Source of the DNA: a virus
Direction: 5' to 3' (one strand)
Virus record (IMG/VR): IMGVR_UViG_3300034104_006991
Coordinates: 1-31,833 of that record
Length of the DNA stretch: 31,833 nucleotides
The notes under the pieces are model-generated. The model ran no database searches. It was not told the origin of the DNA and was given only the letters and a program-made list of their open reading frames with translations. Shown here piece by piece: positions 803 to 19,897 of the stretch. Each line of letters opens with the position of its first letter. Position 1 is the stretch's first letter. The translations under genes were made by a program, and so were the position numbers.

Positions 803-2290
803 TCAGATTTGGAACCACATGTCGCCGGATGCGGACGCGGTCGGCGTCGCGCTCTGCACGAAGACCTGCCCGCCGCCGTTGTATGGCGAGACGACATTGC
901 GCAGGTAGTTCGCACCCGTCGGACCTGTCGGACCCGGAGGACCGGTTGGCCCGGTGGGCCCGGTCGGACCTGCCGAGCCCGTAGGCCCGTTGGGCCCCGT
1001 CGGTCCCGGCGGGCCCGGGGACCCGGTGGCGCCCGGCGGCCCGGCAACGGTCGAGCCCGGGCCGGTTGGACCGGTCGGACCGGTGGGGCCGGAAGGGCCG
1101 GAAGGACCGGAAGGACCGGGAGGGCCGGCCGGACCGGTAGCGCCCGTGGCACCCGCGGCGCCCGCGGACCCCGGAGGGCCTGTCGGACCCGGGGGGCCGG
1201 CAACGGTTGAGGCAGCGCCGGCCGGTCCAGTGGGTCCGGGTGCGCCGGTTGCGCCCGCGGTGCCCGGAGGCCCTGCAGCCCCCGCAGAGCCCGTGGCGCC
1301 CGTTGGGCCGGTCGGCCCGGTGGGGCCGGCAGGGCCCGGGGGGCCGGCGGCTCCGGGCGGCCCTGCGGGGCCCGTGGTGGAGGACACCCACTCAGTGTCC
1401 GTGCCGCTGCCGTTCACAGCGAGGATGCGCGTGGCGTTGCCGGAGTAGGACGGCAGGATGGCCGCTCGAGCCCCGGAGGCGGTCGTGGCGCCGGTTCCGC
1501 CGTTGGTCAGGGCCAGAGTGCCGCTCAAGGTCACGGCGCCCGTGGTGGCTCCTGAAGGCGTCAGGCCGGTGGTGCCGCCGCTGAACGAGGACACCCCGGA
1601 GGCAACGGTCGTCCACGACAAGGCGCCCGACCCGTTGGTCGAAAGCAACTGACCGTTGGTGCCGTCTGCCGAGGGCAGGGTGTAGGTCGTGCCGCCGGCC
1701 GCCGCCGGCACCGTCAGGCCGACGAAGCCGGAGGTCGAACCCAACAGCCGCAGGGTGCTGCGCAGGTCGAGTCTCGAGTTCGGGCCGAGGGCAACATTGG
1801 TGCCGTCGAAGGTGAACAGCGCAGACCCTGCAAAGAGCCCGCCGCTGTTGAACTGAATCTGGGTGTTGGCGCCGCCGGGGTTCGACGGCGTCGTGAACCC
1901 GAGGGCGACATTGGTGCCGTCGCAGTAGATGAGCGACCGGTAACTCTGCGGAATCTGCACCGTAGTGCCGCCGACCGCAGCCGACGAGATGGTCACCGTG
2001 AACGCACCGGTCGTGTTGTTGAAAACCACCCACTGCCCGCCGACGCCCGCCGGCAACTGGTAGTTCACATTCGCGGTCAGCGCGCCGGTGACGATGATGG
2101 TCGGCGGACGATACTGCGACACCGACAGCGCGACGATGCCAGATGCTCCGACCGCGTTCAGCGTCGTCGTACCGCCAAGCGACGCGTCAATCGCATCCCA
2201 GTCCGTGTTGACCGGGACATCCCATGTGTTCACGAACGAGCCGTTGGGCGGCTTTTCAATGTTCTTGTTGGTCGTGTAGGAACTCGTCAT
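803..2290 (-). CDS. Collagen-like tail fibre protein
   Basis: A 495-aa fibre protein. Residues 1-60 ([27 protein letters not shown]) look like the virion-anchoring N-terminus of phage fibres. Residues about 60-300 are beta-rich repeats, including [11 protein letters not shown] and [16 protein letters not shown], a module also found in the fibre at 19905-21716. Residues 307-461 are 49 Gly-X-Y triplets in three blocks (18, 16 and 15) separated by two identical STVA breaks. The 34-residue tail ends SGDMWFQI. Y positions hold many Thr (about 20) and 11 Pro. Collagen-like phage proteins are known to form rigid trimeric stalks. The ribosome site AGGAG overlaps the TAG of the upstream gene. The nearby prolyl-hydroxylase-type enzyme is notable. 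Confidence 0.93.
908..1372 (-). repeat. Collagen Gly-X-Y coding repeat (49 triplets)
   Basis: Degenerate 9-bp repeats encode [12 protein letters not shown] and similar triplets. Two identical 4-residue interruptions (STVA, each followed by GPPG) split the array into 18, 16 and 15 triplets. The GGN/CCN codons make the opposite strand also read as Gly/Pro-rich, which creates spurious antisense reading frames. Confidence 0.93.
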
Positions 2291-2298
2291 GGCCTCTC

Positions 2299-4932
2299 CT
2301 AAATCGCTTGCTGCGCGATGTCGAGCGCCTTCACCACCGCTTCGTCGGGATGGTTCAGCAGCGGCTCGGTATGTTTGTCGGTCTCGCGACGAACGGTCTT
2401 GGTAAGCGACATCAACTCATTCACGATGGATTGTACTGAATCCACGCGGCCACCAGACTTGCGCTGCGCGCGCGGCTGCATCTTCATCTCGGTCCATGCG
2501 ATGACATCGCCAACCGTCTTGCCCCTCATCACTTCCGGATTGGAGTTGATGACGATTGGCTTGAATGCATCAGCGGTTGGCATCGATGGGTCCAATCGAA
2601 GAGCCCGCATCGCCCCTTGCAATCCAAGGAAGTGCGACAGATACAGATTTGCCGGCGTTGCCTCAAATCCGTTTCTGCGCAGCCCCTCTGCGTTTTCGTT
2701 GATATAAATCGGACCAAGAACCTTCGCCATCTCCACGCCTTGAGCGGTCTTCTTCAGCGCGTTGAGTTCTGCGTTCGACATGTTGCTTGTCACTTCCGGA
2801 TAGTGACGACGCGCCATGTCGCGCCATGTCTCGTTGATGAATTGATACGGACCATACGCAGAGCCTCGAGGATTCTGCGCGGTTCCTTCGTTGCCAAAGA
2901 TTTGACTGATGGTTTGCTGCTCGACAGGTCGCTCAAATTGAGTCAGAGCCTGCTGCAGTTTTTCGCGGGACTCTTCTGTCAAATCGGATTTCGAGATTTC
3001 CTGAATGGCCGACTCTCGTTGCTTGTCGTTCTTGGGCTCGGGCGGCAGCGCGCTGCCCTCCCATCCAACGGGGGGCTTCGCGTACTCCGGCTCCTGAGGT
3101 TTCGCGCTCGGGTCTTCTTGACCAAGCAGGTATTCGTCGCGAACGACCCCGGCATACCCCGCGGCGCGCGTGGCTGCGGGCGGCGTTACCTTGTCGCCAA
3201 CTCGCTCCAAGTCGCCTGCCCACTTCTGAATCTTGCCCTGCGCCTTGGGAGACGCCGCTATGAATCCGGCCACGGCGTGCGGCGCGCTGCCGGCAAACCA
3301 CCCGAGCATTCCAGACACGGCTCCTCGAGAGCCTTCCGGCATGAACTTCGATGTCGCAGCGCCGGCAATTGCAGGCTTGAGGTTAGGGCTGTATTGCGCA
3401 ATCTCCGATAGAACTTGCTGCTGCTGCGGAGATGTTGCCTTGAGCAACCTCTTCACGATTTGGTCGTCACTCAACTTGCCGGTTCTTCCAAACATCGACC
3501 GAACGGCATCGATGGTGTTTGACGCGTCTTCGTACTCGCCCATGATTTTTACATAGTCGGCGTCAGCGTCCGCGATTGCATCCCAAATGGATTGACGAAC
3601 CTCTTGCGCGGCACGATACGCTTGAGTATCGCCCGTGTAGGTCTCGCCAAGACTTCCGATGGAACGCTTCAACTTGTCGGCACCAATCACATTTCGAGCG
3701 GGAGAGTTTAGCGGCTCCGACGCTACGGCGATGGTTCGCTGCTCAGCATCATCCAAGAATCTCAGCGCGGCATCTGACACCGGGACTGCGCCGTTCTGCG
3801 TGTTAATCGTCAACTGCTGACGAAGGTCTTGGATTTTCTGGCCGACTCTTGCGAAGTTGACAGGATTGGCTCGACCACCCATCTCCGCAACATACGCCGC
3901 CTGACGAGCATCCTTTGCGCCCTGCAGACCTTCCTCCGCGTACCTGACGATTTTGGAGTGGTCAGCGCCAGAGCGTTGCATCTCGGCAAGCACCGCGCGT
4001 TGCTCTGGGGTGCCGCTTTTCGCAATCTCGTTGACTTCTTTCAAAATCGGCATTGGAACGCCGGCCAACTGACTTCCAACTGCTCGTGACGCGCCGAGCA
4101 AGTTAGGGGTCTTCTTTCCACCAATTACGGGCACAGCGTCGGGAATCCGCGTGCCAACAAGCGGCGTTTTTGCCACTTTTATGGATGCTTGAATCGGGTC
4201 AAGGTAATTCGCCGCATCTCGCGCTTTGGTCGCTGCCTTCGCAACGCCTGCAAACCTTTCAGCGCGTGCGACATTGCCTGCGGCCTCCGCGCCTTTGGCT
4301 ACTTTTGACGCCGCTCCGGCCGTGGCTGACGCGCCGCCGGTGAGCAACGCAGAGGCATCCATAAGGATGGTTGCCGGGTCTTTCGCAAGAGCCCTGAGGA
4401 ATCCCTGCTTCGACCCATACCTCGTGGAATAGTCGTCGATGAGCGCATTGATGACGCGTTCGTCTTCAGGGTCTACATCAAGACCAATCGCGCCTTTTGC
4501 CTTTGAGAGCGCGCCAGTGCCAAGTTGCTTCAGGCCTTCAGCGGTTTGGCTTGGATTTGCGATGGCGCCGGCCACCGATTTGACAACGCCCCATGTGCTT
4601 GAGGGCAGGTTGGTTGCGCCCTCTCTAAGGGCCTCGCCAACCGTGTAATCCTTTTCGGATTCCGCTGCGGGCGCACGCAATTGCTGCCTGACCGTCAGTT
4701 CTCGAGCGGGAACCTTCGGCGCACCGGCAGGAATCGGCTGACCCTCGACTGTCCTGACCGCGGCGGAACGAGAGTCTCCCTCACTCGGTTGCAAGATAGA
4801 CTTCTCGAAATCACTGGGCCTATCGCCTGAAGCGGGCGCGGCAACACGGCCAGAAGAAGCCACAGGCGCTGCAGCCGCTCTCGGGTCGTAGTCGTCTTTC
4901 AGGTCAAGTGCTGCTTCAAAATCGCTTGCCAT
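2299..4932 (-). CDS. Virion lytic transglycosylase / DNA-ejection type protein
   Basis: An 877-aa protein. Residues 1-650 are Ala-rich and mostly helical, with an Ala/Gly-rich apolar stretch near 185-205 and charged helical segments; no domain is recognised there. Near residues 675-800 is a lysozyme-like transglycosylase (SLT) region: catalytic-type Glu682 in GNEGTAQNP, then SAYGPYQFI and a W-x-D-x-A-R-R stretch. Virion transglycosylases of this kind (T7 gp16, P22-type ejection proteins) ride in the head or tail and open a local hole in peptidoglycan during genome entry. A KSGGRV motif near residue 820 recurs in other virion proteins here. AAGG of the ribosome site overlaps the TAA of the upstream 1657-aa gene, so the two are probably co-translated. 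The transglycosylase call rests on motif reading; the N-terminal role is inferred. Confidence 0.82.
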
Positions 4933-4941
4933 TGACAGACC

Positions 4942-7900
4942 TTACTGGTTCCAGATGATGTTGGAGATACCCGGCAGAATAGGGCCATTCGGCTCGGGGT
5001 CGCCATTCGCGTCACGGACAATTTGACCTTCCGCGGTTCGCTTTGGGCCGTAATGCAGGAACGCCGCGTATTTGTTGATGCGCTCCGGAGTCTGACCGTT
5101 CTTCCGCAACCAGTCGAATGCGGACTCTCCCGGCTTGGAAGACTTCGTCCGAAGAAGACGCTCAATCATCTCCTGCCGAGTCTTGTATGCGTTGTCGTTG
5201 AACAGTGCTTCGTTGCGGAACGCTGTGCGCAGATTGTCCATGGAAACGAAGTCGCTCATGCCCGTTGGCACCATTGACTGCGATTCACGCATGTAGTTCT
5301 GCATGTCGATAGCACGCTGTTTATCGACCATCATCTGAGCAAGGAGCGTCTGCATCGACGCCTTGTCCAATTTCATGTTAGGAACGGACGCCGACGCCTC
5401 TCGCAATGCAGCAAGAGAGTTTTGGTCCGCGCCGCTCGACTGCAGGAAGGTCAAAGCAGTCGTCAATTTGTCGATGGCATTACCAGTCGTCAAATCCTCT
5501 GCCGCAATAAGTCTCTCCGGCGGGACAGGCTGACCAATGGTTCCAAATGCCGTGGTGATGATGTCGTTGTACGCTTTCGCAAAATATCGACGCGGCTCAT
5601 TCAAAACGCCTGCCGCAGCGACGCCGCCATCAGGCAGTTTGCTGACATCCTTCGCAATCATGTTGATGATGCTGCCGCGGCCATACGCATCGGCTGCCGC
5701 GTCTGAAACTTCTTTCAGCACGGTTTGATTCTCTTGCAATCGCAGCGCGCGTCGTGCGTTGTCGTCGCCCGCGAAAGTGCGAAGGTCAGTGCGAATGGAG
5801 TTCTGGCCCTGCTGACCGACCCAGTTTCGAGTGCCAGAGAGCGGCGCGTTCTGGCTCATCTCTGAGGCTTGCGCGGCCAGAGACCCTTCGGGAGGGGGCG
5901 CCTCTTCCACTTCGCCATCTGCAGCCTCTCCCTGCACGGAGCGAGTCATGGGAGTGGCCACGGCTTCCGGCGCTTTGCCGCGCAGAAGGTTAGTCATCTC
6001 GTCCTGCGCGATGAGCGGAAGTTTTGCTTGGTCCTGCGGAGTCAACTGCATGTACTGACCCAACAGCATGCGAGAGCCGTCCTTGAAATAGACCCACTGG
6101 CGACCGGCTTGGTCTCGAATCTGCGCCGACTGAACCTGCGCGCCGGTCTCAACGCGAGTCTGCTCCGTCGATGCTCTCGCCTGCTCGGTCTGCGCGCGAA
6201 CCTGTTGCAACTCGGCCTGACGACGCTGCACATCCTGATACGAACGACCGGCCGCACCGGCGCCAACGAGCAGCGCAGAGATTCGGTTCTCGGTTGGCGT
6301 GGCGGCTGCCGCTGCGGCGCCGGTCAACACCGGGAACAACAGGTCCTTGTTCCTTTCGAGCCATCCTCGAGCACGGTCCGCCATGCCCGGCGATTTCTTC
6401 GCCTGCAGGTTGATGGTGCCAAGATTCGGTTCCGGCGGCGGAGCAAGCCCCGAGGATTGCGGGGCAGCATTCGTCGCGGGCGCAAGCCCTGCCGGCGGCG
6501 GCGCGCTTTCACGCTCTCGCTCCATCTCCGGGTCTTCGCTTTCGGCCGCTCCACCGGCTGCCATCTGACCAACGCGCTTCGACTTGATTTTGACTTCCTG
6601 CAGGTCTTCCGGCTTCGGTGCGGTCGCGCCCTTGTACATCCCGTAGACCTGAGCCCCGGTGTCCACGATGTCCTTCAAGTCGTCCATTGTCGAGCGCGCG
6701 GCAGGCAGGTCGCCCGCAGTCTGCAGTTCGGGGATGTCCATCGAAGTCGGGATGGCGATTCCGTTCACGGGCTCGTAGGGCATCACCTGCCCACCGCCGG
6801 CCTTCATGAACTTCGGCGCAAGACCGTTGGCGTCTTCGGTCGCATCATAAGGCAGCACAGGGCCGCCATCCGCACGCGCGAGGCCGCCACGATATGTCGC
6901 TTTGCGGCCCGTGACCATTTCGTCCATGCCCGTGGCCACGCTTCCCGGCTGAGTCGTGGTTGTCGTCGTCGGCGCAGGCGCGGGAGGCGTCGCGGGTGCT
7001 GAGGGCGCTGAGGGTGCCGGCGTTCCCATGACTTTGCCGCTCAGGTCGTACAGACTGCTTGCGGTGTTGGTCAACTGCTCCAAGTCGTCTGCAGAAGACG
7101 GGCGAGGGGCCAGTCCCGGCGCGACCGTAAGTTGCCCCACAGGCAGCGTCGCGTTCGGCACATATCCGGCGCCACCCGGCACTCCGGACATGCTGCGACC
7201 GGCCGCGGCGTGCGGCCCGTACATCTGCGCCTGCGCGGCAATCAACTGCGCGAGGTCGAGGCCGCCCATGACAGGTGTGCCACCATCGGCAAACTTGGCG
7301 CGACCAACAGCCTCGGGATGCTTCTTCTCGACCTCATCCGCCATGAGACCAATCTGCGTCGCCGGTTCGCCCTTGATGTTGTACGAGTAGATTTTCTGCC
7401 CGTCGTAGGTGTGCCCGATGTGCTTGATGTTTTCTTTGACGCGACGGTCAGACATCATTGCTGCCATCTGGACAATTGCCTGCAAATCTTTTGAGCGAGG
7501 GTCTTCGCTGTACAAGTTGCTCTGAGCGACGGCAAGTTCGGGGGTTTTCGCAGGCTCATCTGGAATGCCAGACTGCGCCTTGGGAACATCCACGGTTTGC
7601 GGAGGCTTGAGCCCGGCCTCCTGCGTCATGTCGTCGTTCTTGGTCTTGATGTCTTCCGCTTCTTTCTGGCGGCGCAATTCATCGGCCTGACGCTGCGCGA
7701 CCATCGGGTCCGGACCCGCGAGTCCGCCGTTTGCAAAGCCCATGCCGGCATGCTGCGGCTTGACGCGGCCGCCTTCCATAGCCTTGCCCATCTCGGCAGC
7801 GTCTTGCGTGGCCGTGTCGTAGTTGACGGTCTTCAGGCCGCCCGCGAGGCCGACCGCTTCGGGGTGGTCTTTCTCGACTTCCTGTGCCATGAGACCCATC

Positions 7901-9915
7901 TGGGTCTGAGGCTGCCCCTTGTAACGGAACGAGTAGATGGGCTGACCATCGAAGGTCTCACCGACCTTTCGCACATCCTCTTTCGCGCGGACATCCGACA
8001 GGATGGAGCCCGGCTGCCGAGTGGTCGTCGTCGAACCCGAGAGCGCACCGGTGCCCATCGCGATGTTCGCGAGGAACTGGCTGACTTGGAACGGGTACGC
8101 GACCGACTGCAGGAACTGGTTGTACAGCGCCTGCAGGCCTGCCTGCCCGGTCTGCTGCTGAATCTGACCTGCAGCCATCTGAGCCTGCCCGCCCTGCAGC
8201 GCCGCCTGCTGCGCGCCAGAGCCAAGGCCTGCCATGGCCTGCGAGGTGCCCGCTCCCATGCCGTAAAGGCCCTGTCCAAGCCCCTGCCGCGCCTGCGCGG
8301 CGGCGAGGTCCTGACCGAAGGCCTGCTGACCGATGGCGGCCTGCTGCTGAGAGCCGGTGACGCCTTGACCGAACAACTGCTGCCCGAGTCCCTGCATGGC
8401 CTGACCACCAGAGATGCCCTGCCCGAACAACTGCTGCGCGAGAGCGGCCTGCTGCTGCGCGGCGCCCGTGCCCTGCCCGTAGAGCAACTGGCTGAGCGCG
8501 GCTTCCTGCTGAGCCTGCGACATGCCTTGGCCGAAAATCTGCTGCGCAAGCGCGGCCTGCTGACCGGCCGTCGTCGCGCCCTGCCCGAACAGAGCCTGCG
8601 CGGCAGCCTGCTGCTGCTGAGCGGCAGTTGCACCCTGTCCGAAGATTTGCTGCCCGAGCCCGGCGGCCGCCTGCCCCGTTCCCAACTGCTGACCGAAAAT
8701 CTGCTGCGCCAGTGCAGACTGCGCCTGCGCCGAGGCCATGTCCTGTCCGAAGCCCGCCTGCCCGATGCCAAGCAACTGCTGCGCAGCCGCGGCCTGCGCC
8801 GCACGGTTCGCCTGCTCGGCCCCGAGCCCGACGCCCTGCTGCTGCTGCGCGGCGCCGAGCGCCTGCCCGTAGCCCTGCTGCAGGAGGTCTCCAAGGACCT
8901 TGCCCTGCGCCAACTGCTGCTGCTGATTCAGGTTCGCAGCGACGATGCCGGCTCGGTCACCGCCGAAAGCCCCCGAGCGGATGGCGTTGCCCAACTGCTC
9001 GGACTGCGCCTGCTGCGCCTGCTGATTCAGGAGCGCCGCGGTCGGCGCCACCACGCTCGAGAGGAACGGGCTCATGTACCTGTTGATAGCCGCCGAGTCG
9101 AGTTCGGACGGATTGACCCCGCGCGCGCCGGCAAGGCCGAGCGCGGTCGAGACGGCCTGATACGGGGAAGCCCCCGCTCGAGCGCCTCCAATGGTGTCTG
9201 CGGCGGCCCCCTGCAAGGGTGCAGCAGCCCCGGGGGCGCCGGCAATCGACGCCCCTGCGAGGCCGTAGAAGGGCGCAGCGGCCATCTGGCCGGCCTGCAA
9301 CTGCTCGAGGGCCGACTGAGTCAACCCCTGCCCCTGCTGCTGTCCTGCCGCGAGGTTCTGCAAGGCCGCCGTCTGGACCGGCGCGGCGCCGGCACTGGCG
9401 TCCGCCTGCGAGGAAAGGGAGGCCGCCGCCAACTGGCCGCCAATGTCCTGCGCCGCGCCGATGTTCTGGACCGCCTGAGCCTGCAAAGGGTTCGCGTAGT
9501 CGCCGGCGCCCTGATACGCCGCACCGGCCATGAGGTTGTACGGCGTCGCACCCGCAAGGCCGCCGTAGTACGACTGCATGGCCATCCGGTTGTAGATGTC
9601 GCCGACATCCTGTCCCTGCGAGATGTCGTTGGCCGCCTGCTGATAGAACGGCACCGATGCCATCTGGCCGCCCATCAACTGGTTGGTGGCTTCGTCGTAG
9701 TAGGGCTGCGCCTGCCCCGTCGCGTAGTTGATGTTCTGCATGCCCGCCAACTGCGTCGGCGTCATGGGCGCTACGAATGCGTTCGGGTCGTCCGAATAGG
9801 ACTGAAACGGCGTCCCCGCGGTCTGCTGCGCCTGTTGGTTGACGGCGTTGTACCGCGCCAGAACCTCTGGCGGAATCTGAACTGATTGCGTGGATGTCGA
9901 GGATTTGCCGCCCAT
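4942..9915 (-). CDS. Giant Ala/Gln-rich virion protein with two internal S74-type auto-cleavage motifs
   Basis: A 1657-aa protein, the largest gene in the window. Residues 1-620 are Ala/Gln/Gly-rich and contain ten exact 18-residue repeats (387-566). Two segments match the short S74 intramolecular chaperone domain. The first begins at Ser640 (SDVRAKEDV, then GQPIYSFRYKG, GLMAQEVEKDHPEAV). The second begins at Ser822 (SDRRVKENI, then GQKIYSYNIKG, GLMADEVEKKHPEAV). Both keep the Ser...Lys pair five residues apart (S640/K645, S822/K827) used for self-cleavage in endosialidase-type tails. Further on are Gly-Gly motifs (ADGGP, KAGGGQV), an apolar stretch near 1192-1208, a coiled coil near 1226-1270 and a helical C-terminus. 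The position before the ejection-type transglycosylase suggests an internal or ejected virion protein. GGAG lies 6 nt before the ATG. Confidence 0.88.
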   Translation of the reverse strand: MGGKSSTSTQSVQIPPEVLARYNAVNQQAQQTAGTPFQSYSDDPNAFVAPMTPTQLAGMQNINYATGQAQPYYDEATNQLMGGQMASVPFYQQAANDISQGQDVGDIYNRMAMQSYYGGLAGATPYNLMAGAAYQGAGDYANPLQAQAVQNIGAAQDIGGQLAAASLSSQADASAGAAPVQTAALQNLAAGQQQGQGLTQSALEQLQAGQMAAAPFYGLAGASIAGAPGAAAPLQGAAADTIGGARAGASPYQAVSTALGLAGARGVNPSELDSAAINRYMSPFLSSVVAPTAALLNQQAQQAQSEQLGNAIRSGAFGGDRAGIVAANLNQQQQLAQGKVLGDLLQQGYGQALGAAQQQQGVGLGAEQANRAAQAAAAQQLLGIGQAGFGQDMASAQAQSALAQQIFGQQLGTGQAAAGLGQQIFGQGATAAQQQQAAAQALFGQGATTAGQQAALAQQIFGQGMSQAQQEAALSQLLYGQGTGAAQQQAALAQQLFGQGISGGQAMQGLGQQLFGQGVTGSQQQAAIGQQAFGQDLAAAQARQGLGQGLYGMGAGTSQAMAGLGSGAQQAALQGGQAQMAAGQIQQQTGQAGLQALYNQFLQSVAYPFQVSQFLANIAMGTGALSGSTTTTRQPGSILSDVRAKEDVRKVGETFDGQPIYSFRYKGQPQTQMGLMAQEVEKDHPEAVGLAGGLKTVNYDTATQDAAEMGKAMEGGRVKPQHAGMGFANGGLAGPDPMVAQRQADELRRQKEAEDIKTKNDDMTQEAGLKPPQTVDVPKAQSGIPDEPAKTPELAVAQSNLYSEDPRSKDLQAIVQMAAMMSDRRVKENIKHIGHTYDGQKIYSYNIKGEPATQIGLMADEVEKKHPEAVGRAKFADGGTPVMGGLDLAQLIAAQAQMYGPHAAAGRSMSGVPGGAGYVPNATLPVGQLTVAPGLAPRPSSADDLEQLTNTASSLYDLSGKVMGTPAPSAPSAPATPPAPAPTTTTTTQPGSVATGMDEMVTGRKATYRGGLARADGGPVLPYDATEDANGLAPKFMKAGGGQVMPYEPVNGIAIPTSMDIPELQTAGDLPAARSTMDDLKDIVDTGAQVYGMYKGATAPKPEDLQEVKIKSKRVGQMAAGGAAESEDPEMERERESAPPPAGLAPATNAAPQSSGLAPPPEPNLGTINLQAKKSPGMADRARGWLERNKDLLFPVLTGAAAAAATPTENRISALLVGAGAAGRSYQDVQRRQAELQQVRAQTEQARASTEQTRVETGAQVQSAQIRDQAGRQWVYFKDGSRMLLGQYMQLTPQDQAKLPLIAQDEMTNLLRGKAPEAVATPMTRSVQGEAADGEVEEAPPPEGSLAAQASEMSQNAPLSGTRNWVGQQGQNSIRTDLRTFAGDDNARRALRLQENQTVLKEVSDAAADAYGRGSIINMIAKDVSKLPDGGVAAAGVLNEPRRYFAKAYNDIITTAFGTIGQPVPPERLIAAEDLTTGNAIDKLTTALTFLQSSGADQNSLAALREASASVPNMKLDKASMQTLLAQMMVDKQRAIDMQNYMRESQSMVPTGMSDFVSMDNLRTAFRNEALFNDNAYKTRQEMIERLLRTKSSKPGESAFDWLRKNGQTPERINKYAAFLHYGPKRTAEGQIVRDANGDPEPNGPILPGISNIIWNQ
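8218..8757 (-). repeat. Ten tandem 54-bp repeats encoding an 18-residue unit
   Basis: The region encodes ten consecutive units of exactly 18 residues (residues 387-566 of the 1657-aa protein). The consensus is roughly Q-x-F-G-Q-G-x-x-x-A-Q-Q-Q-A-A-L-x-Q; example units are QIFGQGATAAQQQQAAAQ and QLFGQGVTGSQQQAAIGQ. The aromatic-Gly pair is kept in all ten, and no unit changes length. One more unit-like segment (QGYGQALGAAQQQQ) lies upstream but out of phase. Confidence 0.9.
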
Positions 9916-9916
9916 C

Positions 9917-10405
9917 TTATGCTCCGTTCATCCACGCTCCAGTCCGCGCGCCATAGAGGAAGAAAGCCCCGCTAGGTTTCCCGAACTGGCGCTCGTACAA
10001 GCGCACCTTCGCTTCGGTGCGATGGTTGGATAGTACGCCGATGATGAGAGGGATTCCAAGGTCATCGGCTACCTTTTTGCTGAACTCGCAGAGTTTTCGC
10101 GCGCGACCGCCTTTGGCGCTGCGATATTCGGGATGCGTGAACACGGCGCGCTCCTCAACCACGAGAGTGTCGGAGTACCACATCTGACCGATGCGCAGCA
10201 GCACGCACGCCTCTATCAACTTGCCGGGCTCACCAATGACGCCGACGATGCCATGGTCCTGATGCAGTGCCGGCCAGATTTCCGCGGCCAGTTTTCCCGG
10301 GTTCGGATTTAGGAAACCGTTCTCCTCGACGGCCACCATCGCAATCTTCATGATTTCGTCGAGGTCTTCCGGAGTGCCAACTCGAACCTTGATGTCATTC
10401 GTCAT
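9917..10405 (-). CDS. GNAT-family N-acetyltransferase-like protein
   Basis: A 162-aa protein using the ATG at 10405. AAGGA (10412-10416) sits 6 nt upstream, and the alternative TTG at 10411 would overlap that site. The layout is GNAT-like: an N-terminal VRVGTPEDLDEIMKIA helix, central strands, a FTHPEYRSAKGGRARKLCEF segment standing where the acetyl-CoA-binding loop and helix lie, and a C-terminal YERQFGKPSGAFFLYG strand. Acetyltransferase-like proteins are common between head-tail and ejection genes of short-tailed phages, where their substrate is generally unknown. Modification of a virion or host protein is possible. It begins 2 nt after the upstream gene's TGA. Confidence 0.78.
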   Translation of the reverse strand: MTNDIKVRVGTPEDLDEIMKIAMVAVEENGFLNPNPGKLAAEIWPALHQDHGIVGVIGEPGKLIEACVLLRIGQMWYSDTLVVEERAVFTHPEYRSAKGGRARKLCEFSKKVADDLGIPLIIGVLSNHRTEAKVRLYERQFGKPSGAFFLYGARTGAWMNGA

Positions 10406-10407
10406 GG

Positions 10408-11007
10408 TCAATCCTTTTTCGGGGGAGGAAGTTTCTGCAGGGTCTTGATGGTCTCAGCGCGGAACCGCTTGATGAACTCGTCGAGCGCGCGATGCCCGAG
10501 GTCCATATCGCCCTTGCCGACCTTGCGAACCTCATCGGGAGAGAGAACATACTCACCGCCCGCGGCTACGATGGGAACGGAGCCTGTCTCCCCGCCTGAT
10601 GCGCGGCCGGGCAACGGCATGTCGTATGGCGCGCTACCTTTCGAGTACGGCGCGGGGCCTTGCTCGTAGGGCGTGCCGCCGAACATGCGCTTGATGCGCT
10701 TGAAGCCGGCCATCGTGTTGCCCTCGCCCATGGCCGAGACGATGTCGGCGGGGATGACATAGGAGCCCGACGGGACATGCATCGGCAAATGGTCTGTGCG
10801 GCCGGCAACGGCGCTGTGAATCGGGCCCGTGTGCAACTTCTTGCCACCAGACTTCGGCGATGACGGCATGTGCAAACCGCCTCGAGCGGATTCGCGCGCA
10901 GTCTGCAACGCTGCGGCAACGGCTTGGGTCTGCGGATGACCGGCGTGCGTCATTTCGCTGATGTTGCCGCTGATAATTTCTTGAGACTTACCCTTGTGCA
11001 GTGGCAT
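10408..11007 (-). CDS. Conserved phage protein with Gly-Gly motifs
   Basis: A 199-aa protein of unknown function. It contains SYVIPADIVSAMGEGNTMAGF and EYVLSPDEVRKVGKGDMDLGH, two similar elements that both place a Tyr-Val-(Ile/Leu) strand ahead of a (Pro)-Ala/Asp-(Glu/Ile)-Val helix, suggesting an internal duplication. Several Gly-Gly motifs (SARGGLH, KSGGKK, RASGGETG, VAAGGEY) resemble those in other virion proteins of this operon. The C-terminus is basic. It sits between beta-rich tail proteins and the acetyltransferase. The ribosome site is a G-run 6-7 nt before the ATG. A structural or assembly role is inferred from context only. Confidence 0.75.
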   Translation of the reverse strand: MPLHKGKSQEIISGNISEMTHAGHPQTQAVAAALQTARESARGGLHMPSSPKSGGKKLHTGPIHSAVAGRTDHLPMHVPSGSYVIPADIVSAMGEGNTMAGFKRIKRMFGGTPYEQGPAPYSKGSAPYDMPLPGRASGGETGSVPIVAAGGEYVLSPDEVRKVGKGDMDLGHRALDEFIKRFRAETIKTLQKLPPPKKD

Positions 11008-12259: not shown

Positions 12260-12684
12260 GACGCCGCTCCGCCCGACGCTGTGATGGTGCAGCCGGCCGC
12301 CGACGCCTGAACCTGCAAAGTGTCTCCCGCGGCCATGGCAACAGAACCGGTCCACTGCATCGTGCTGTACGCAGGCAGCGACGCGTTGAAGAAGATAGCG
12401 TTCGACGCTCCTGCAGTGCCTCCAGACGGAACCACGGACACATAAATTCCGATGGCCGCTGCGGTGGTGTTGCAGATGTTCATGTCTACGATGCATGCGC
12501 GCTGACCAAGCGGGCAGGTATAAAGCGTTGCCCAACTGGTCGTCATCGCCGCCTGACCAATCTTCGACAATCCACCAAAAATAGCCAACAGATTCGCAAT
12601 CGCCTGCGTGTAGCGGCTGATGTCACCAAGAGCGACGACGCCATTCTTCTGCGTGGTAAGAATATCGCCAAGAGAAGTAGACAT
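12256..12684 (-). CDS. Small beta-sandwich virion protein
   Basis: A 142-aa protein whose start codon overlaps the upstream stop (TGATG); its own TGA overlaps the next ATG. Residues 1-40 form a helical N-terminus (ALGDISRYTQAIANLLAIFG). The remaining residues form strands ending GDTLQVQASAAGCTITASGG, a pattern seen in small phage tail or fibre proteins. It lies between the tail-hub gene and the FGRLRVS-type protein and is translationally coupled to both, which suggests they are made in matched amounts. Function beyond a virion role is not visible. The reading frame extends further upstream inside the tail-hub gene, but only as an overlap artefact. Confidence 0.78.
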   Translation of the reverse strand: MSTSLGDILTTQKNGVVALGDISRYTQAIANLLAIFGGLSKIGQAAMTTSWATLYTCPLGQRACIVDMNICNTTAAAIGIYVSVVPSGGTAGASNAIFFNASLPAYSTMQWTGSVAMAAGDTLQVQASAAGCTITASGGAAS

Positions 12685-14768
12685 CAGAACTTCCCATCCG
12701 GTTTGATTCGATAGCGGATGTTGCCGATACGCCAGAAACTGCCGACATCGTTGCTCGAGAGTTGAATTGACATCAGGCGACCGCGAAACCGCGGAGAGAT
12801 GTATTGCGTCGCTTGCGTGACCGGATACGGTCCGTACACCTTCGGGGTTTGCCCGGGGTAATCTGCGACATAGAAGGTAATGTTGACCGTTGCGTTCTGG
12901 ACTCCACCAAAGTAGCCCCACTTCATGTCCGGCCACACTTGGTCCACATAGGTCATCTGGTCGCCTTCCGCGATGGCGAACCATCCTGTGCGCACCGCCG
13001 GCAGCATTGCTTGACCGTCCGCATCCGGAGAGGTCTCGTGCTGATAGATGTAACCTGTGTTCGGGTCTGCTCCGATGGGCGGCCCGAGAACCGACTGGTC
13101 TAACCACGCGGAGCGCGACAATGACCCGTAGTCCCACGCTTGCAGCAGCGTGTTGTATTTCACATACGCGTTGATTTCGCCACCATTGCCGGTGGTCGGG
13201 TAGTACCACGCCACCTCCCCGAATCGAGAATTGGTAGCGATGCGAACCTTGTCGATGTTGTTCTGGTCGATGTCCTGAAAAATCACATCCCACAGCGGGC
13301 ACGGAAGCGGCGTTACACCCTCTCCCGACAGCATGTAGAACTGACTTTGAGACATCCAGTACACCACACCGCCCAAAGACGCCGCCGCCTTCTGCGCAAT
13401 GAGGCCGCAGCCGGTGCCAAGTTCGTTGAACGAATAGACATACGGAGCGCCGGTGTACTGCATCGCCCACACGCCGAGGTCTGTCCAGATAAGGCCCTGT
13501 TGCGGACCTTGAATGCATCCAACAATCTTCGAGCCTTTTGGAATGCGATACGAGCCCGCCTGATTGGTGATTGACGCAACCCACTCGTTGTAGTTGTTGA
13601 CATCGCACCAACGAATCAACAGCGGGTCTTCAATGCCAGTAAAAGTAGAGCCCCACGCGACAATCTGCCTCTGCGGCATCGCAACAAACGCGCCCATGTT
13701 CTTTGCGGGCGAAGTAGGAATAGCCTCTGCAATTGGCGCACCGCTTGTCGGGTCCCACAGATAAACTGGTGCAAAAATATCGTTGTTGCGCGGGACTGCG
13801 ACAAGGATTTGACCCCAGTTGTCTAGCGTCCAATCGTATGCGTCAATCGGGTCGCCATAAAGCGTTGCCGTCGCAGGTCCTGTGCCGTATCCGCCAGAGC
13901 CATATCCACCAACGCCGTATCCGCTGCCGATAGGAATCGCGCCGACGCCGTAACTGTATCGAAACCTGACATTTCCGCCGTTGATGAATCCGGACGCCGA
14001 AGAAGTTGCAACCGTGCTTGCAAAAATAGTGAAGTTGTCGGCGTCCACGATTGTGCGAATCGTGTAATTGCCAAAGATAGTTACGCCGCCGACCGTGGTT
14101 GCAACAAGACACGGATAGGTATCGCCAACCTGATAGCCGTGATTTGCCAGTTCCACATTGACGGTGTATTGACTTGAAACCGTGGTGAACTCCGCAACCA
14201 AGCCGCCCGCTGTAACGGTCGAAGAAGCGAGAAACGGCTCTCCAAGCACATTGATAGCCGTGATGTTGTACTCGGTTGCAGACACATACACCATCGGGTA
14301 AAGACCAAAAAGAATGACGCCGCCGACTGAGACATGAGTCTCGATGTAAACCGTGTTGAACCCGATGAGGCCAACTGTGGTGGCGTCCGTGACCTTGACT
14401 ACCGGACTGCCGGCAGTCGTGTCAAAATCTTCCGCAATGTCCGTCTGCTCCGAGCGCGGAGTGATGAATATTTGCACGCCATTCGTGAGGACTGACAGTA
14501 CAGACTCATCGGTGAGAGGGTCAGATTCCTGACCGATAGCGAGATGCGACTGGGAGTTCGTGTCTTCCCACCCCCACAAAGCGCGCACTGGCGTTGCGAA
14601 AGTGTCGTTGAAGAATTTCACCCATCCGCCCAGTTTCTGGACAAGGCCAAGACCGTTCCTGTCCGGGATGAAGCGAACAAGGTTGGAGGTCGAAAGACCA
14701 GTCTCGTTGAGCGCCGGCGTTTCGTTCTGGTCGATGCCCGGCTTGACCTTGAGCGAGGCGTGCGGCAC
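12684..14768 (-). CDS. Tail hub / P22 gp10-like stabilisation protein
   Basis: A 694-aa protein with a GTG start 3 nt after the upstream TAA. The opening (SLKVKPGIDQNETPALNETG, then NLVRFIPDRNGLGLVQKLGGW) is typical of short-tailed-phage tail proteins that wrap the portal-adaptor exit. Repeated strand-turn blades follow (LWDPTSGAP, VAWGSTFTGIEDPLLIRWCD, WTDLGVWAMQYTG, VYWMSQSQFYMLSGEG), consistent with a beta-propeller nozzle such as P22 gp10 or T7 gp12. A Gly/Tyr-rich segment (GYGVGGYGSGGYGTG) lies near residues 265-285. The preceding adaptor-like gene supports a tail-hub role. No strong ribosome site precedes the GTG, so coupling to the adaptor gene is likely. The specific subfamily is inferred. 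Confidence 0.82.
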   Translation of the reverse strand: MPHASLKVKPGIDQNETPALNETGLSTSNLVRFIPDRNGLGLVQKLGGWVKFFNDTFATPVRALWGWEDTNSQSHLAIGQESDPLTDESVLSVLTNGVQIFITPRSEQTDIAEDFDTTAGSPVVKVTDATTVGLIGFNTVYIETHVSVGGVILFGLYPMVYVSATEYNITAINVLGEPFLASSTVTAGGLVAEFTTVSSQYTVNVELANHGYQVGDTYPCLVATTVGGVTIFGNYTIRTIVDADNFTIFASTVATSSASGFINGGNVRFRYSYGVGAIPIGSGYGVGGYGSGGYGTGPATATLYGDPIDAYDWTLDNWGQILVAVPRNNDIFAPVYLWDPTSGAPIAEAIPTSPAKNMGAFVAMPQRQIVAWGSTFTGIEDPLLIRWCDVNNYNEWVASITNQAGSYRIPKGSKIVGCIQGPQQGLIWTDLGVWAMQYTGAPYVYSFNELGTGCGLIAQKAAASLGGVVYWMSQSQFYMLSGEGVTPLPCPLWDVIFQDIDQNNIDKVRIATNSRFGEVAWYYPTTGNGGEINAYVKYNTLLQAWDYGSLSRSAWLDQSVLGPPIGADPNTGYIYQHETSPDADGQAMLPAVRTGWFAIAEGDQMTYVDQVWPDMKWGYFGGVQNATVNITFYVADYPGQTPKVYGPYPVTQATQYISPRFRGRLMSIQLSSNDVGSFWRIGNIRYRIKPDGKF

Positions 14769-14771
14769 GGA

Positions 14772-15542
14772 TTAGCGTCCCGGCGAGGCGGCCACAGCGG
14801 GCGACGCGGATGACCACGACGACGCTTGGAACTTCTTGCGCGCTTCCTCGACGAATGCCGACTTTAGCAGAGCCTGATACTGCGACTCGTAGGTGAAGCC
14901 CATTTCAGGGTCGTTCGCTGCGGCGCCGAAATTGCGTTGGAACATGCTGATGTAAATCATCGACGCCAACATCAGCAGGTCCGGAAGGTAAGTGCTGATG
15001 AAAGTGTATTGCGTGTCAGCGTCACCGACGACCGCGAACTTGTAGAGCGACGGCAGACGCTTCGTGCCCTTGACCGTCACCGGATACGCGGCGTTCGGAG
15101 TGGGCCCGAACAGGATGTAGTTGTACAGGTTGCCGCCCGGAGAGTCGCCTCCGTACATGGCAAAGAACTTTGGCATGCCGGTGAACGCCGTGTCGTTGTA
15201 GACATTCTGCAGGTACTCTTTCGTCACCGGCAGAAGCGGAATCTTCGCGGTGCCGGAAGTCACCTGCATCGTCTCAATCGCGACGAAGTCGTCTACATCA
15301 ATCTCGAGGATGGGATTGCTCGGCGTGAGCGTGAAGGTTCCGGTCTGCTGAGACGGAAGAAGGTCGAGGTCTCTCTGGATGCGCAACTCTGCGTAGTTGA
15401 GCATCTGTGGGATGATGGCAGTGAACGGGGGGTCCACCCCCTGAACAACCCCGCCTACGCTCTGCGTGGCCACAACGGCCATCACGCCGATTTGCGTGAC
15501 ATAGGCGTTATAGGACAGGGGGTTTGTCTGAGGGTTGCTCAT
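14772..15542 (-). CDS. Head-tail adaptor-like protein (phage adaptor family)
   Basis: A 256-aa protein. The segment IIPQMLNYAELRIQRDLDLL (residues about 44-63), followed by a strand-rich core, matches the usual phage adaptor pattern in which an early helix carries AE-x-R-I-x-R-D-L. The C-terminal third is helical (YESQYQALLKSAFVEEARKKF). Such proteins sit as a ring under the portal and receive the tail hub, as P22 gp4 or T7 gp11 do, and the next gene is the tail-hub protein. A second adaptor-like gene lies at 22457-23146. No clear Shine-Dalgarno sequence is visible before the ATG (the region reads CCACCCCT), which is unusual in this operon. Confidence 0.82.
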   Translation of the reverse strand: MSNPQTNPLSYNAYVTQIGVMAVVATQSVGGVVQGVDPPFTAIIPQMLNYAELRIQRDLDLLPSQQTGTFTLTPSNPILEIDVDDFVAIETMQVTSGTAKIPLLPVTKEYLQNVYNDTAFTGMPKFFAMYGGDSPGGNLYNYILFGPTPNAAYPVTVKGTKRLPSLYKFAVVGDADTQYTFISTYLPDLLMLASMIYISMFQRNFGAAANDPEMGFTYESQYQALLKSAFVEEARKKFQASSWSSASPAVAASPGR

Positions 15543-17089: not shown

Positions 17090-17281
17090 TTAGTCGCCTT
17101 CAGGCGGACTCGGAGCAATCCACTCGCCGTCGATGTAAAACCAACCCGGGCCGACATCGCTTGGACACTCGATATCCACAATGCCCTCAGGAAGGTCGTT
17201 CCACGGAGACACGCTGTCCCATACGCAAACATTCACAACGAGACCGTCGGCTTCAAACACAAGCGCGAATCTTTTTACCAT
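17090..17281 (-). CDS. Small fibre-associated protein
   Basis: A 63-aa protein beginning KRFALVFEADGLVVNVCVWD with an acidic, Pro-rich end (GWFYIDGEWIAPSPPEGD). It resembles short proteins encoded beside phage tail fibres: a strand pair F-A-x-V-x-x-x-G-x-V-V-N, a central P-E-G, and a G-W-x-Y-x-x-G-x-x-x-x-P-x-P-P-E end. Its start overlaps the stop of the glycine-rich adhesin by 7 nt, so the two are coupled, which fits a fibre chaperone or cap. A direct function is not established. Confidence 0.72.
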   Translation of the reverse strand: MVKRFALVFEADGLVVNVCVWDSVSPWNDLPEGIVDIECPSDVGPGWFYIDGEWIAPSPPEGD

Positions 17282-18591
17282 GTGACCATCACCACATATC
17301 CGTGACCACCTTGACCACCAACGCCACCAAGCCCGGGATTCATGCCGCAGCCGCCGCCGCCGCCGCCACCACCGCCAAGCCCGCCTCGGCCGCCATTTGC
17401 TCCCGCCGTGCTTGCTGCGACGGTAGTGCCACCACCGCCGCCGCCTGTGCCGCCCGACACGCCGTTACTGGCTATCCCGTCTGCGCCCGCCGTAGGAGTT
17501 GCGCCAGATGTGCCCGCGGCGCCGCCACCACCGGACGGCGACGCGCCAACATTTCCAGTGTTTCCCCCGTCTGCCGCAGCAACAACATTAGGGACCGCAT
17601 CATGCAACCCGCCGCAGCCGCCGCCGCCGCCGCCCCGAACCGATGTTCCGCCGGCATAAGCCAACGCCCCCGTAGGATTTCCACCGCCGGCCGCGCCGCC
17701 TTCCCACGCCGGGCCCCATGTTGCTCCGTTTCCTCCGGCTATTCCTTGCATGCTCACGCCAAAGTTGGCGGAAAGAGTCGAAGCAGAGTTCGAGTGGGCC
17801 GATGCGCCGGACCCGCCAACTGTTGCTGCTGATGTAATTGGGCCGCCAAGGCCACCGCCGCCACCGCCCGCAAAGATAAGAGCAGTGGAACTTGCAACGG
17901 TCGTTATATTGTTCGTCAAAACGGCAGAAGGCTGCCCAGAAAACCCGGCACCTCCCGCGGCGCCCGCCGCTCCCGGGTTACCACCAAGACCTCCAAATCC
18001 AACCTGAATCGATAATTTATTTGGAAGCAAGTTTGCAGGAACGATAACGGACGCTACTGCCCCGCCTCCGCCTCCAGAGCCTCCTTTTGCAACGACTGCG
18101 GTTGCAAGGCTTGCCCCCGCGCCGCCACCGCCGCCGCCACCCCATACGCGCATAAGCACGCATGTCGGAGTAAAAGAAGTTGGCTTCGTCCATACCCCAA
18201 GACCGGGATTGCTAAATGTTTGAATGTCAGCGGGAGTCTCTGGGTTGCAAGACTTCCAACCGCACACTTCGTCAAACAAAATTCCGGACTGCGCAGGAAC
18301 GCTGCCGCTCCATATATCAACCTCAGTGGTTCCGTCGGTGTGAATAATGGTGATTGTCTGAGGGGTGGATGCGTCGTTGTTCCACACTGACAAAAACTTT
18401 ACATTTCGTTGAGTTGACGCGGCAGGCGACGCGACGACATCGGTTGTCGTTGCTGAGGAAATGCTTGTGTTTGCCCTATCAGGTGTAACAGTGGTTCCTG
18501 AAATATCTACCCACGATGCATGAACAAGAACCGATGTTGCTGCGCTTGTGGTTACCCTGATTTTGTCAGAAGTTGATGTAAGAAGAATCAC
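17275..18591 (-). CDS. Glycine-rich tail adhesin, copy 2
   Basis: A 438-aa protein with a GTG start. Residues 1-140 form a Ser/Thr-rich head module (ILLTSTSDKIRVTTSAATS, ISGTTVTPDRANTSI, ASPAASTQRNVKF). Residues about 145-438 are a glycine-rich domain with many GGGGGG runs and an aromatic end (GHGYVVMVTW). Such domains resemble receptor-binding tips built on polyglycine helices, as in S16-type gp38 adhesins, where loops between Gly stretches contact the host. Upstream gene 18596-19897 is a clear paralogue: same start, same head module, different loops. The Gly runs make frame slippage during replication plausible. Confidence 0.85.
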   Translation of the reverse strand: MILLTSTSDKIRVTTSAATSVLVHASWVDISGTTVTPDRANTSISSATTTDVVASPAASTQRNVKFLSVWNNDASTPQTITIIHTDGTTEVDIWSGSVPAQSGILFDEVCGWKSCNPETPADIQTFSNPGLGVWTKPTSFTPTCVLMRVWGGGGGGGAGASLATAVVAKGGSGGGGGAVASVIVPANLLPNKLSIQVGFGGLGGNPGAAGAAGGAGFSGQPSAVLTNNITTVASSTALIFAGGGGGGLGGPITSAATVGGSGASAHSNSASTLSANFGVSMQGIAGGNGATWGPAWEGGAAGGGNPTGALAYAGGTSVRGGGGGGCGGLHDAVPNVVAAADGGNTGNVGASPSGGGGAAGTSGATPTAGADGIASNGVSGGTGGGGGGTTVAASTAGANGGRGGLGGGGGGGGGCGMNPGLGGVGGQGGHGYVVMVTW

Positions 18592-18595
18592 GGGC

Positions 18596-19897
18596 TCACC
18601 AAGAGATTACGATGCAATATCCATCGCCACCAACACCGCCCGCGCCGCCCAAGCCGGGGTTGTTGCCGGCGCCGCCACCGCCGCCACCACCGCCGCCAAG
18701 CCCACCTGCTCCGCCCGCGGCCCCGCTTGTGGATGCGGTGACTGTAGAGCCTCCACCGCCACCACCTTGGCCGCCAGAAACGCCGTTTGTTGCAGCACCT
18801 ACGCCGCCTTGGCCCGGAGTTGCGCCGGCTGACCCTGCGGCGCCTCCGCCACCTATGCCGGAAATGTTCCCTCCGCCCGCTGAGCCTATCAAAACCGCGG
18901 GAGCCGAAGAGCGCGCGCCTCCAGAACCGCCGCCGCCGCCGCCCCAGACAGACCCTCCGCCGGCAACCATGACTGCGGAAGCACTAGAACTTCCGCCGCC
19001 GCCGCCACCTTCCCATGCATAGTGATTAGCATTGCTGCCGGCTGAGCCGGTCATTCCTTGCATGCTAATTCCCAAGCCACTTGCGCCCGGATTTCCGCCG
19101 GTTCCCGCACCAGTTCCACTTGCGCTTTGCCCGGCGCCATACCCACCGCCACCACCACCGCCGCCGGTGATTAAACCTGAAATTTGCCCTCCCCTTCCAC
19201 CGCCGCCGCCATACGCAGTCAAAAAAGAGCCGAATGTGGTGTTGCCGCCTATTCCTCCATCGCCGCCCGGGCCGCCCGCGGCGCCCGCGGCGCCCGCAGC
19301 ACCTCCTGCGCCAATAGTCACCGATACGGGATTTGACAAAACCGAGGTGAGAAAAAGTTGTTCGATGCGAACTCCGCCGCCGGCGCCACCGCCGCCTTTG
19401 GTCACTGTCGCAGTGTTGAGAGAGCCTCCGCCACCGCCGCCACCGCCGGCGCCAAATGCGCGGACAAGAGACATTTTTGCATTGAACGAAGTTGGCTTGT
19501 TCCAGTTTCCGTTAGCGCTAAAAGTTTGAATGTTAAGCGGCCGCGTAGCGCCGTATGTAGTCCACCCTTGCCCATCGGTGTACGCAATACCTGACTGAGC
19601 AGGAAGCGCAATCTGAAATAGAGTGACGACCGTCGTGCCGTTGGTGTGCTGAACGGTAACGGTGTTGGCGTTGTTTGCAGCGTTGTTAAAAATGCTGACA
19701 AATTTTGCGTTTCTTTGAGTAGATGCAGCAGGAGACGCAATGACCGTGGTCGTCGTGGCAGTGGTAATGAGAGTGTTGAGGCGCCCCGGCGTGACCGTTG
19801 TTCCAGACAGGTCAACATAAGATGACTGCACCTGAACATCGCCGGCATCGCTCGTGATGACACGAAGAAGGTCAGAGGTTGAGGTAAGAAGAATCAT
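18596..19897 (-). CDS. Glycine-rich tail adhesin, copy 1
   Basis: A 433-aa protein with GAGG 6 nt before its ATG. Its head module (ILLTSTSDLLRVITSDAG, LSGTTVTPGRLNTLI, ASPAASTQRNAKF) matches that of the next gene almost residue for residue at key positions. A glycine-rich domain with GGGGGGGG runs and an end GDGYCIVISW follows. The last 60 residues of both copies share GVSGGxGGGGGG and AAGGxGGLGGGGGGGGG. Four nucleotides separate the two genes. Tandem duplication with diverged loops suggests a phage carrying two receptor specificities or a mixed tip. Molecular role inferred from composition and location. Confidence 0.85.
   Translation of the reverse strand: MILLTSTSDLLRVITSDAGDVQVQSSYVDLSGTTVTPGRLNTLITTATTTTVIASPAASTQRNAKFVSIFNNAANNANTVTVQHTNGTTVVTLFQIALPAQSGIAYTDGQGWTTYGATRPLNIQTFSANGNWNKPTSFNAKMSLVRAFGAGGGGGGGGSLNTATVTKGGGGAGGGVRIEQLFLTSVLSNPVSVTIGAGGAAGAAGAAGGPGGDGGIGGNTTFGSFLTAYGGGGGRGGQISGLITGGGGGGGGYGAGQSASGTGAGTGGNPGASGLGISMQGMTGSAGSNANHYAWEGGGGGGSSSASAVMVAGGGSVWGGGGGGSGGARSSAPAVLIGSAGGGNISGIGGGGAAGSAGATPGQGGVGAATNGVSGGQGGGGGGSTVTASTSGAAGGAGGLGGGGGGGGGAGNNPGLGGAGGVGGDGYCIVISW

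Follow-up and report, generated by a model that had tools for sequence, protein, structure and literature searches.

The 18-residue repeat encoded in the viral DNA studied here very probably makes up one arm of a long antiparallel helical hairpin, the other arm of which precedes a conserved tip motif and varies in length with the repeat; such a partner arm was absent from the preliminary description of this DNA. The full reading that we favor, namely that the repeat forms one arm of such a hairpin within a virion protein of the ejection-protein slot and is part of a conduit, is on balance probable; taken by itself, the conduit role is proposed by analogy and is best regarded as tentative. The DNA analyzed (hereafter the window) is an entire IMG/VR virus record, IMGVR_UViG_3300034104_006991, 31,833 bases long, the relevant features of which are collected in Table 1.

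Table 1 Features of the window discussed in the text.
Feature	Position	Strand	Basis
Repeat-bearing gene P0001, 1657-aa virion/ejection-type protein	4942..9915	-	ORF, PF13884 E 1.5e-15, PHROG, synteny
Proposed hairpin: N-arm, residues 14-314 (length 301), weak 18-residue Pro-Phe/Tyr units	8974..9876	-	Periodicity z 5.7, length tracking, AlphaFold2
GAFGGDR, putative hairpin tip, residues 315-321	8953..8973	-	Alignment invariance, AlphaFold2 loop
C-arm, residues 315-606 (292 residues), to the YPFQ anchor	8098..8973	-	Family length series
Ten aromatic-Gly 18-residue units, residues 387-566	8218..8757	-	Self-identity, unit analysis
First Peptidase_S74 (intramolecular chaperone) domain, residues 640-688, SDVRAK	7852..7998	-	Pfam, AlphaFold2
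Second S74 domain, residues 818-872 (about 818-873), SDRRVK	7300..7464	-	Pfam, PHROG
Following gene: 877-aa product matching transglycosylase	2299..4932	-	phrog_4067 E 7.5e-18
Preceding gene: acetyltransferase-like protein	9917..10411	-	Profile matches; same neighbor in PhiGT1, pCB2047-A and MW202675.1
gp10-like hub / 'phage stabilization' slot protein	12684..14768	-	phrog_3287 E 2.4e-61; slot by comparison with MW202675.1
SU10-type adaptor protein	14772..15542	-	PF24175 E 2.1e-14

The array consists of ten consecutive 18-mers with no insertion, all ten carrying FG or YG at positions 3-4 (residues 389, 407, 425, 443, 461, 479, 497, 515, 533 and 551). At lags of 18, 36 and 54 residues it matches itself with an identity of 0.47-0.53, which 500 composition shuffles place at z 10.9-12.0, and periodicity by chance is excluded. 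The initial observation of ten gap-free units sharing an aromatic-Gly pair was thus borne out. Identity between units averages 47% for protein and 56% for DNA, indicating that the array is old and accounting for the merely weak 54-bp array detected by TRF. The 18-residue register reaches past the ten units to cover all of residues 315-606, and a separate 18-residue periodicity is found over residues 14-314 (z 5.7; weaker in another self-identity test). The unit consensus reads Q-L-F/Y-G-Q-G-L-G-A-A-Q-Q-Q/L-A-A-L-G-Q, with Gln contributing 48 of the 180 residues of the window array; on a helical wheel, bulky positions fall at 60-240 degrees and five Gln-rich positions at 260-40 degrees. The hydrophobic moment of the unit at 100 degrees was not significant (p 0.3-0.57; L198, whose frame differs, was omitted from the family unit set). 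Hydrophobicity was maximal at 80 degrees (p 0.024 in the window), and the Gly signal at 160 degrees (p 0.001). A simple amphipathic helix, of which the expected 100-degree hydrophobic stripe is absent, is therefore unsupported. Thus, of the long helix with an aromatic-Gly face suggested earlier, the five-turn helical phase is supported and the simple amphipathic form is not.

The product of the repeat-bearing gene, P0001, matches PF13884 over two stretches with 57.7 bits (gathering cut-off 22; E 1.5e-15), identifying it as a Peptidase_S74 protein. Both SDVRAK and SDRRVK are present, and the Ser-Lys pair of these motifs is the putative catalytic pair of the S74 domains. The two domains (window 7300-7998, minus strand) lie ~180 residues apart with ~780 residues beyond the second; two SD.R.K motifs also occur in relatives L074, L027, L029, L031 and L059. 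The PHROG classes retrieved with P0001 are virion structural protein (head and packaging) and DNA ejection protein, these matches resting on S74; the best match, to PHROG 6121/4287, falls in the S74 part, and some weaker ones are to tail-fiber families. A short relative, L032, aligns weakly with phrog_4287 over residues 3-262 (E 0.3). Tape-measure families were missing from the PHROG matches of both P0001 and the array (E up to 10).

The module of the window runs in the order adaptor, gp10-like hub, acetyltransferase, P0001 gene and transglycosylase, an order common to MW202675.1, Sulfitobacter phages pCB2047-A and PhiGT1, and EBPR podovirus 2. The counterpart of P0001 in MW202675.1 is annotated 'internal virion protein D', and the two genes after the S74 gene of PhiGT1 carry the annotation of a putative internal virion/injection protein. 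Because these relatives keep the same neighbor order, the P0001 gene is assigned, by synteny, to the ejection-protein slot of a short-tailed-phage module; the 877-aa protein with the transglycosylase match is likely its partner ejection protein. The S74 proteins of PhiGT1 (gp17), pCB2047-A and EBPR podovirus 2 (gp27) occupy the same slot, preceded by an acetyltransferase-type gene and followed, where shown, by a peptidoglycan hydrolase or injection protein. They differ from P0001 in their size of about 326-342 aa, in that their S74 domain is C-terminal, and in having no visible 18-residue array. In L039, L046, L050, L051 and L061, the C-terminal part of P0001 (about residues 1137-1621) corresponds to an ORF of its own, 543-568 aa long and located downstream, so that some phages have one long fused protein where others have it in two pieces. 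The PhiGT1 injection protein 3′ of the S74 gene (L294:8201-10165) contains a segment, 146-270, that matches a tape-measure PHROG (E 3.5e-9). Elsewhere in the window, positions 803-2290 (minus strand) encode a collagen-like, Gly-Pro-rich protein that is probably a tail-fiber component; two adjacent Gly-rich proteins (17275-18591 and 18596-19897, minus strand) share the start MILLTSTSD..RV and resemble a tandem gene duplication; and a 300-bp period (2.4 copies, 79% match) occupies 20017-20724 within a 603-aa ORF at 19905-21716.

Scanning viral contigs with proteins and alignments, together with one scan of genome contigs and named records, gave relatives at 293 loci; one scan yielded at least 546 confirmed relatives among at least 599 matching stretches. 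A GAFGGDR-type anchor was found in 254 ORFs, 12 of which had no second anchor and were left out (four being another protein and two apparently ended by contig ends); the number of unique segments extending to the YPFQ anchor is 124. The C-arm was measured from GAFGGDR to YPFQ, its count by definition taking in the tip motif, and the N-arm from IPPEV to GAFGGDR. The 124 C-arms fall into 23 distinct lengths (69, 83, 94, 101, 105, 108, 112, 126, 130, 141, 152, 159, 166, 172, 177, 184, 202, 220, 242, 256, 274, 292 and 400 residues), the commonest being 112; a length of 292 is shared by the window protein and two others. Differences from 112 are sums of 18, 11, 7 and 4. Ten of the 22 differences are multiples of 18 and, reckoning helical phase at 100 degrees per residue, 11 of the remaining 12 lie within 40 degrees of it, such that alpha-helical phase is kept in 21 of 22, the sole break being length 172 (L257/L014). 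A periodogram of C-arm lengths over 2.5-40 residues peaked at 3.60 (R 0.87); none of 20,000 random length sets attained this R(3.6), and none of 2,000 attained the maximum when all periods were allowed. Taken separately, the 12 lengths outside the multiples of 18 gave a maximum at 3.61 (R 0.78), and the 3.6 signal in N-arm lengths alone was weak (R 0.35). On a flanking-sequence tree of 122 tips, at least 39 length changes are required, as are at least 19 changes of class modulo 18. The 11-residue step is directly visible as GAGQNLYNMGL-like units in L206-type proteins, and it also separates L213 from L207 in both arms.

These data bear on three points raised in the preliminary description. Selection on helical register is supported by the near-integral number of turns in steps of 18, 11, 7 and 4, by the best period of 3.60 and by the long flanking helices predicted below. 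The whole-unit copy changes to be looked for in relatives account for ten of the 22 differences, the others proceeding by steps of 11, 7 and 4. Homologues with broken register, which were to count against the idea, are confined to the one L257/L014 lineage, both arms of which changed by 71. That lineage has an internal period of 39 residues, and its 71-residue change breaks helical phase yet is matched in both arms. C-arm length was not correlated with the length of the next gene (rho 0.16, p 0.35, 35 loci), nor was array length with that of the C-terminal part of the protein (35 loci).

The longer the repeat arm, the longer the part of the protein before GAFGGDR (rho 0.71 at 35 loci), a correlation that gave rise to the hairpin idea. 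Both arms could be measured in 114 of the 124 segments, the other ten lacking the N anchor and several of these being recovered with other anchors. N- and C-arm lengths are correlated with r 0.997 across the 114 proteins, and with r 0.9988 and a slope of 0.995 in the 33 whose C-arm exceeds 112; the two arms differ by 3-19 residues, and by exactly 9 in 37 proteins. Independent contrasts yielded r 0.9992 and a slope of 0.996, compared to at most 0.39 with permuted tips (200 permutations), and the use of different anchors yielded r 0.997 (99 unique proteins). The motif between the arms is almost invariant, with G, A, F, G, G and R constant in the 14-sequence alignment A1 and in A2. Among 54 disjoint nearest pairs of unequal length, the change was identical in both arms in 14, within 3 residues in 34 and different by more than 3 in 20; in the 29 nearest pairs changing by 14 residues or more, the arm changes are correlated with r 0.9988. 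Exactly equal changes include 65, 36, 18, 71, 11, 108, 180, 7 and 162 residues (from 27 of 57 pairs, taken among the best 32; both arms are available in 54 pairs).

Insertion sites are likewise paired. In 11 pairs preselected for equal change, the gap in one arm mirrors that in the other in its distance from the tip (r 0.98), the C-arm gap being 9 residues further from it than the N-arm gap, and random gap placement came as close in 0 of 20,000 trials. From L195 to L212, six units are gained after about nine units on either side of the tip. In L205, the most similar neighboring units are near-identical duplicates located at -6 to -8 in the N-arm (0.91, 0.91) and 6 to 8 in the C-arm (0.89, 1.00). 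Joint arm change, mirrored sites and a conserved tip are thus found together, as symmetric indels in a hairpin would have them, with the exception of L277. This protein, the only clear arm mismatch, has arms of 298 (N) and 256 (C) residues as counted by eye, its N-arm carrying two extra units, or 36 residues over expectation, in the form of tandem NNAQNVGNQFAGQSS-like units; it is possibly an intermediate in hairpin growth. N-arms in the clades with C-arms of 101 and 83 are 10-13 residues above expectation. Assembly errors are not expected to produce mirrored insertions, and mirrored growth of both arms is not explicable by one tandem duplication. Comparison of the aligned proteins thus establishes phase-keeping lengths, near 1:1 arm matching and mirrored insertion sites.

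The matched growth of the two arms weighs on the proposal that the array is a neutral 54-bp tandem duplication in an Ala/Gln/Gly low-complexity linker, its exact period reflecting the duplication mechanism and no structure. We hold this to be very improbable: recent near-identical duplicates do occur in L205 and L230, and low AlphaFold2 confidence over the array would fit, but one tandem duplication cannot extend both arms, the N-arm tracks the C-arm despite being a separate stretch across the tip, the 11-, 7- and 4-residue classes keep phase, and dN/dS is about 0.2 with no indels. The last figures come from comparison of the window with L195 (73.6% identical over 292 residues), the array having a dN of 0.26 and a dS of 1.34. 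Array self-similarity by length class is highest for 0, followed by 11, 13, 7, 5 and 2. Classes 11 and 7 occur, whereas 13, 5 and 2 are unused though nearly as similar, and 4 and 14 occur despite dissimilarity. Unequal recombination at similar sites may feed or favor some length steps; judging from these sequences, the surviving variants look selected for helical phase. A beta-solenoid of 18-residue coils, each with three six-residue sides, would replace the helix altogether and strikes us as scarcely credible. The coil of a left-handed beta-helix is 18 residues long, and the alternation of Gly, significant at 160 degrees, would suit it; such coils would, however, be disrupted by the 11-, 7- and 4-residue changes, an antiparallel arm of matched length would be unexpected, and AlphaFold2 predicts helix both in the flanks and in the short relative L032 (residues 180-259).

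From the family patterns we infer helix and hairpin as the physical form. In L032 (48-sequence alignment), AlphaFold2 predicted helices (92-127, 133-175 and 180-259) and placed a loop at GAFGG; the mean pLDDT was 67. In the window protein (43 sequences), predicted helices 274-313 and 319-359 flank a tip loop at 314-318, further helices span 53-136 (block pLDDT 68-87 over residues 61-130) and 520-625, and residues 641-710, containing the first S74 domain, have block pLDDT values of 87-95. The pTM of the two monomers was 0.29-0.30, the window protein having 0.29. Residues 405-527 of the window protein fall below a pLDDT of 50 and the array is partly non-helical in the model, leaving the array itself without a confident model. 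The structure prediction called for earlier thus returned no confident disorder, but low confidence only. A Foldseek search of the PDB with the short L032 model returned no match at E ≤0.001, chemoreceptor chains appearing merely at E 1.3-2.8, and the matches of the window model in BFVD were like proteins of uncultured phages and S74 domains. Searching PDB sequences with the A2 profile retrieved recA fusion chains (E 0.0004-0.004, profile positions 254-300) and weak S74-type matches.

The same hairpin might serve elsewhere in the virion. S74 domains usually terminate tail fibers and spikes, and several of the weaker PHROG matches are to tail-fiber families; length-matched trimeric hairpins would also be suitable for a trimeric, S74-chaperoned tail-side stalk, needle or fiber outside the head, its length setting the reach towards a receptor. 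We nonetheless find this unlikely, given that the gene sits between an acetyltransferase/IVPA-type gene and a transglycosylase ejection gene, that a distinct gene of collagen-like tail-fiber type is present at 803-2290, and that S74 is internal in P0001, ~780 residues following the second copy. Quite unlikely, too, is a hairpin forming an internal core on the portal within the capsid, with its length fitted to the head or portal and not to the host envelope. Arms of 69-400 residues, up to ~60 nm if straight, argue against such a core, in spite of the PHROG class 'virion structural, head and packaging' and of T7-type ejection proteins, which, in the part of the source available, stack as a core on the portal (PMC8954989).

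In the hairpin reading that we favor, the N-arm would extend to the GAFGGDR tip and the C-arm would return to a base beside the S74 chaperone domain, with five turns of helix to each 18-residue unit. A lengthened or shortened arm would persist mainly if the change kept helical phase (18, 11, 7 or 4 residues), and if the other arm changed about equally at the same distance from the tip. An alpha-helix rises 1.5 Å per residue; if fully helical, a unit would span ~2.7 nm, the 292 residues of the window protein ~44 nm, and the family 10-60 nm. S74 domains are trimeric in known fibers, and several hairpins might pack side by side to yield a strut or the wall of a channel carrying DNA across the envelope, the number of units then setting channel length. 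That the protein acts as a molecular ruler of the ejection machinery, the number of five-turn units being tuned to host envelope thickness by pairwise insertions in the two arms, much as a tape measure fixes the length of a tail, is a more speculative idea that we regard as doubtful.

As far as the portions of the published sources available to us go, the closest pattern to the matched arms is the cytoplasmic hairpin of bacterial chemoreceptors (classes such as 36H and 40H), a long antiparallel hairpin with a conserved tip whose length varies by symmetric heptad insertions and deletions (PMC5907407). Its unit is seven residues as opposed to mainly 18 (also 11, 7 and 4) here, it belongs to a membrane receptor and not a virion protein, and no sequence relation of P0001 to chemoreceptors was found. 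Tape measure proteins of long-tailed phages, as far as the accessible part of the report describes them, resemble P0001 in being phage proteins with aromatic-marked units of 11 and 18 residues (Phe/Trp units of 11 and 11-11-18) that vary in copy number (Belcaid et al. 2011, PMC3271669). In contrast, no tape-measure profile matches P0001, the module of the window is of short-tailed type, the virus is known from metagenomic sequence only, and paired-arm matching is not described in that part of PMC3271669. The pilot protein H of phiX174, according to the sections available, assembles as a decamer into a helical tube for DNA, 170 Å long, lined with Gln and made up of hendecads and heptads (PMC7354561); it is Gln-rich like the window array but contributes one helix per subunit to the solved tube and belongs to an ssDNA phage. 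T7 gp14 is reported to form a helical channel as a hexamer, and gp15, once ejected, an assembly ~200 Å tall (PMC8954989). The periplasmic adaptor (membrane fusion) protein EmrA is reported to have a helical hairpin with a 127 Å coiled coil but is a host efflux component. A full-text search judged by titles and opening abstracts, in which few subscription papers were covered, returned no published description of matched arms in a phage protein. By analogy with these systems, we propose that the hairpin may be a length-adjustable strut or wall of a DNA conduit.

Envelope crossing by podophage ejection proteins is understood in few phages. Here, sequence alone yields a strong structural constraint, that of a folded-back rod built of counted units, on a very common uncharacterized family, and the question of a ruler can be put to the test in a group of phages that lack tape measures. 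The joint lengthening of two separated segments of one gene poses a genetic puzzle, and the growth of both arms suggests an adjustable-length part of the viral DNA delivery machinery.
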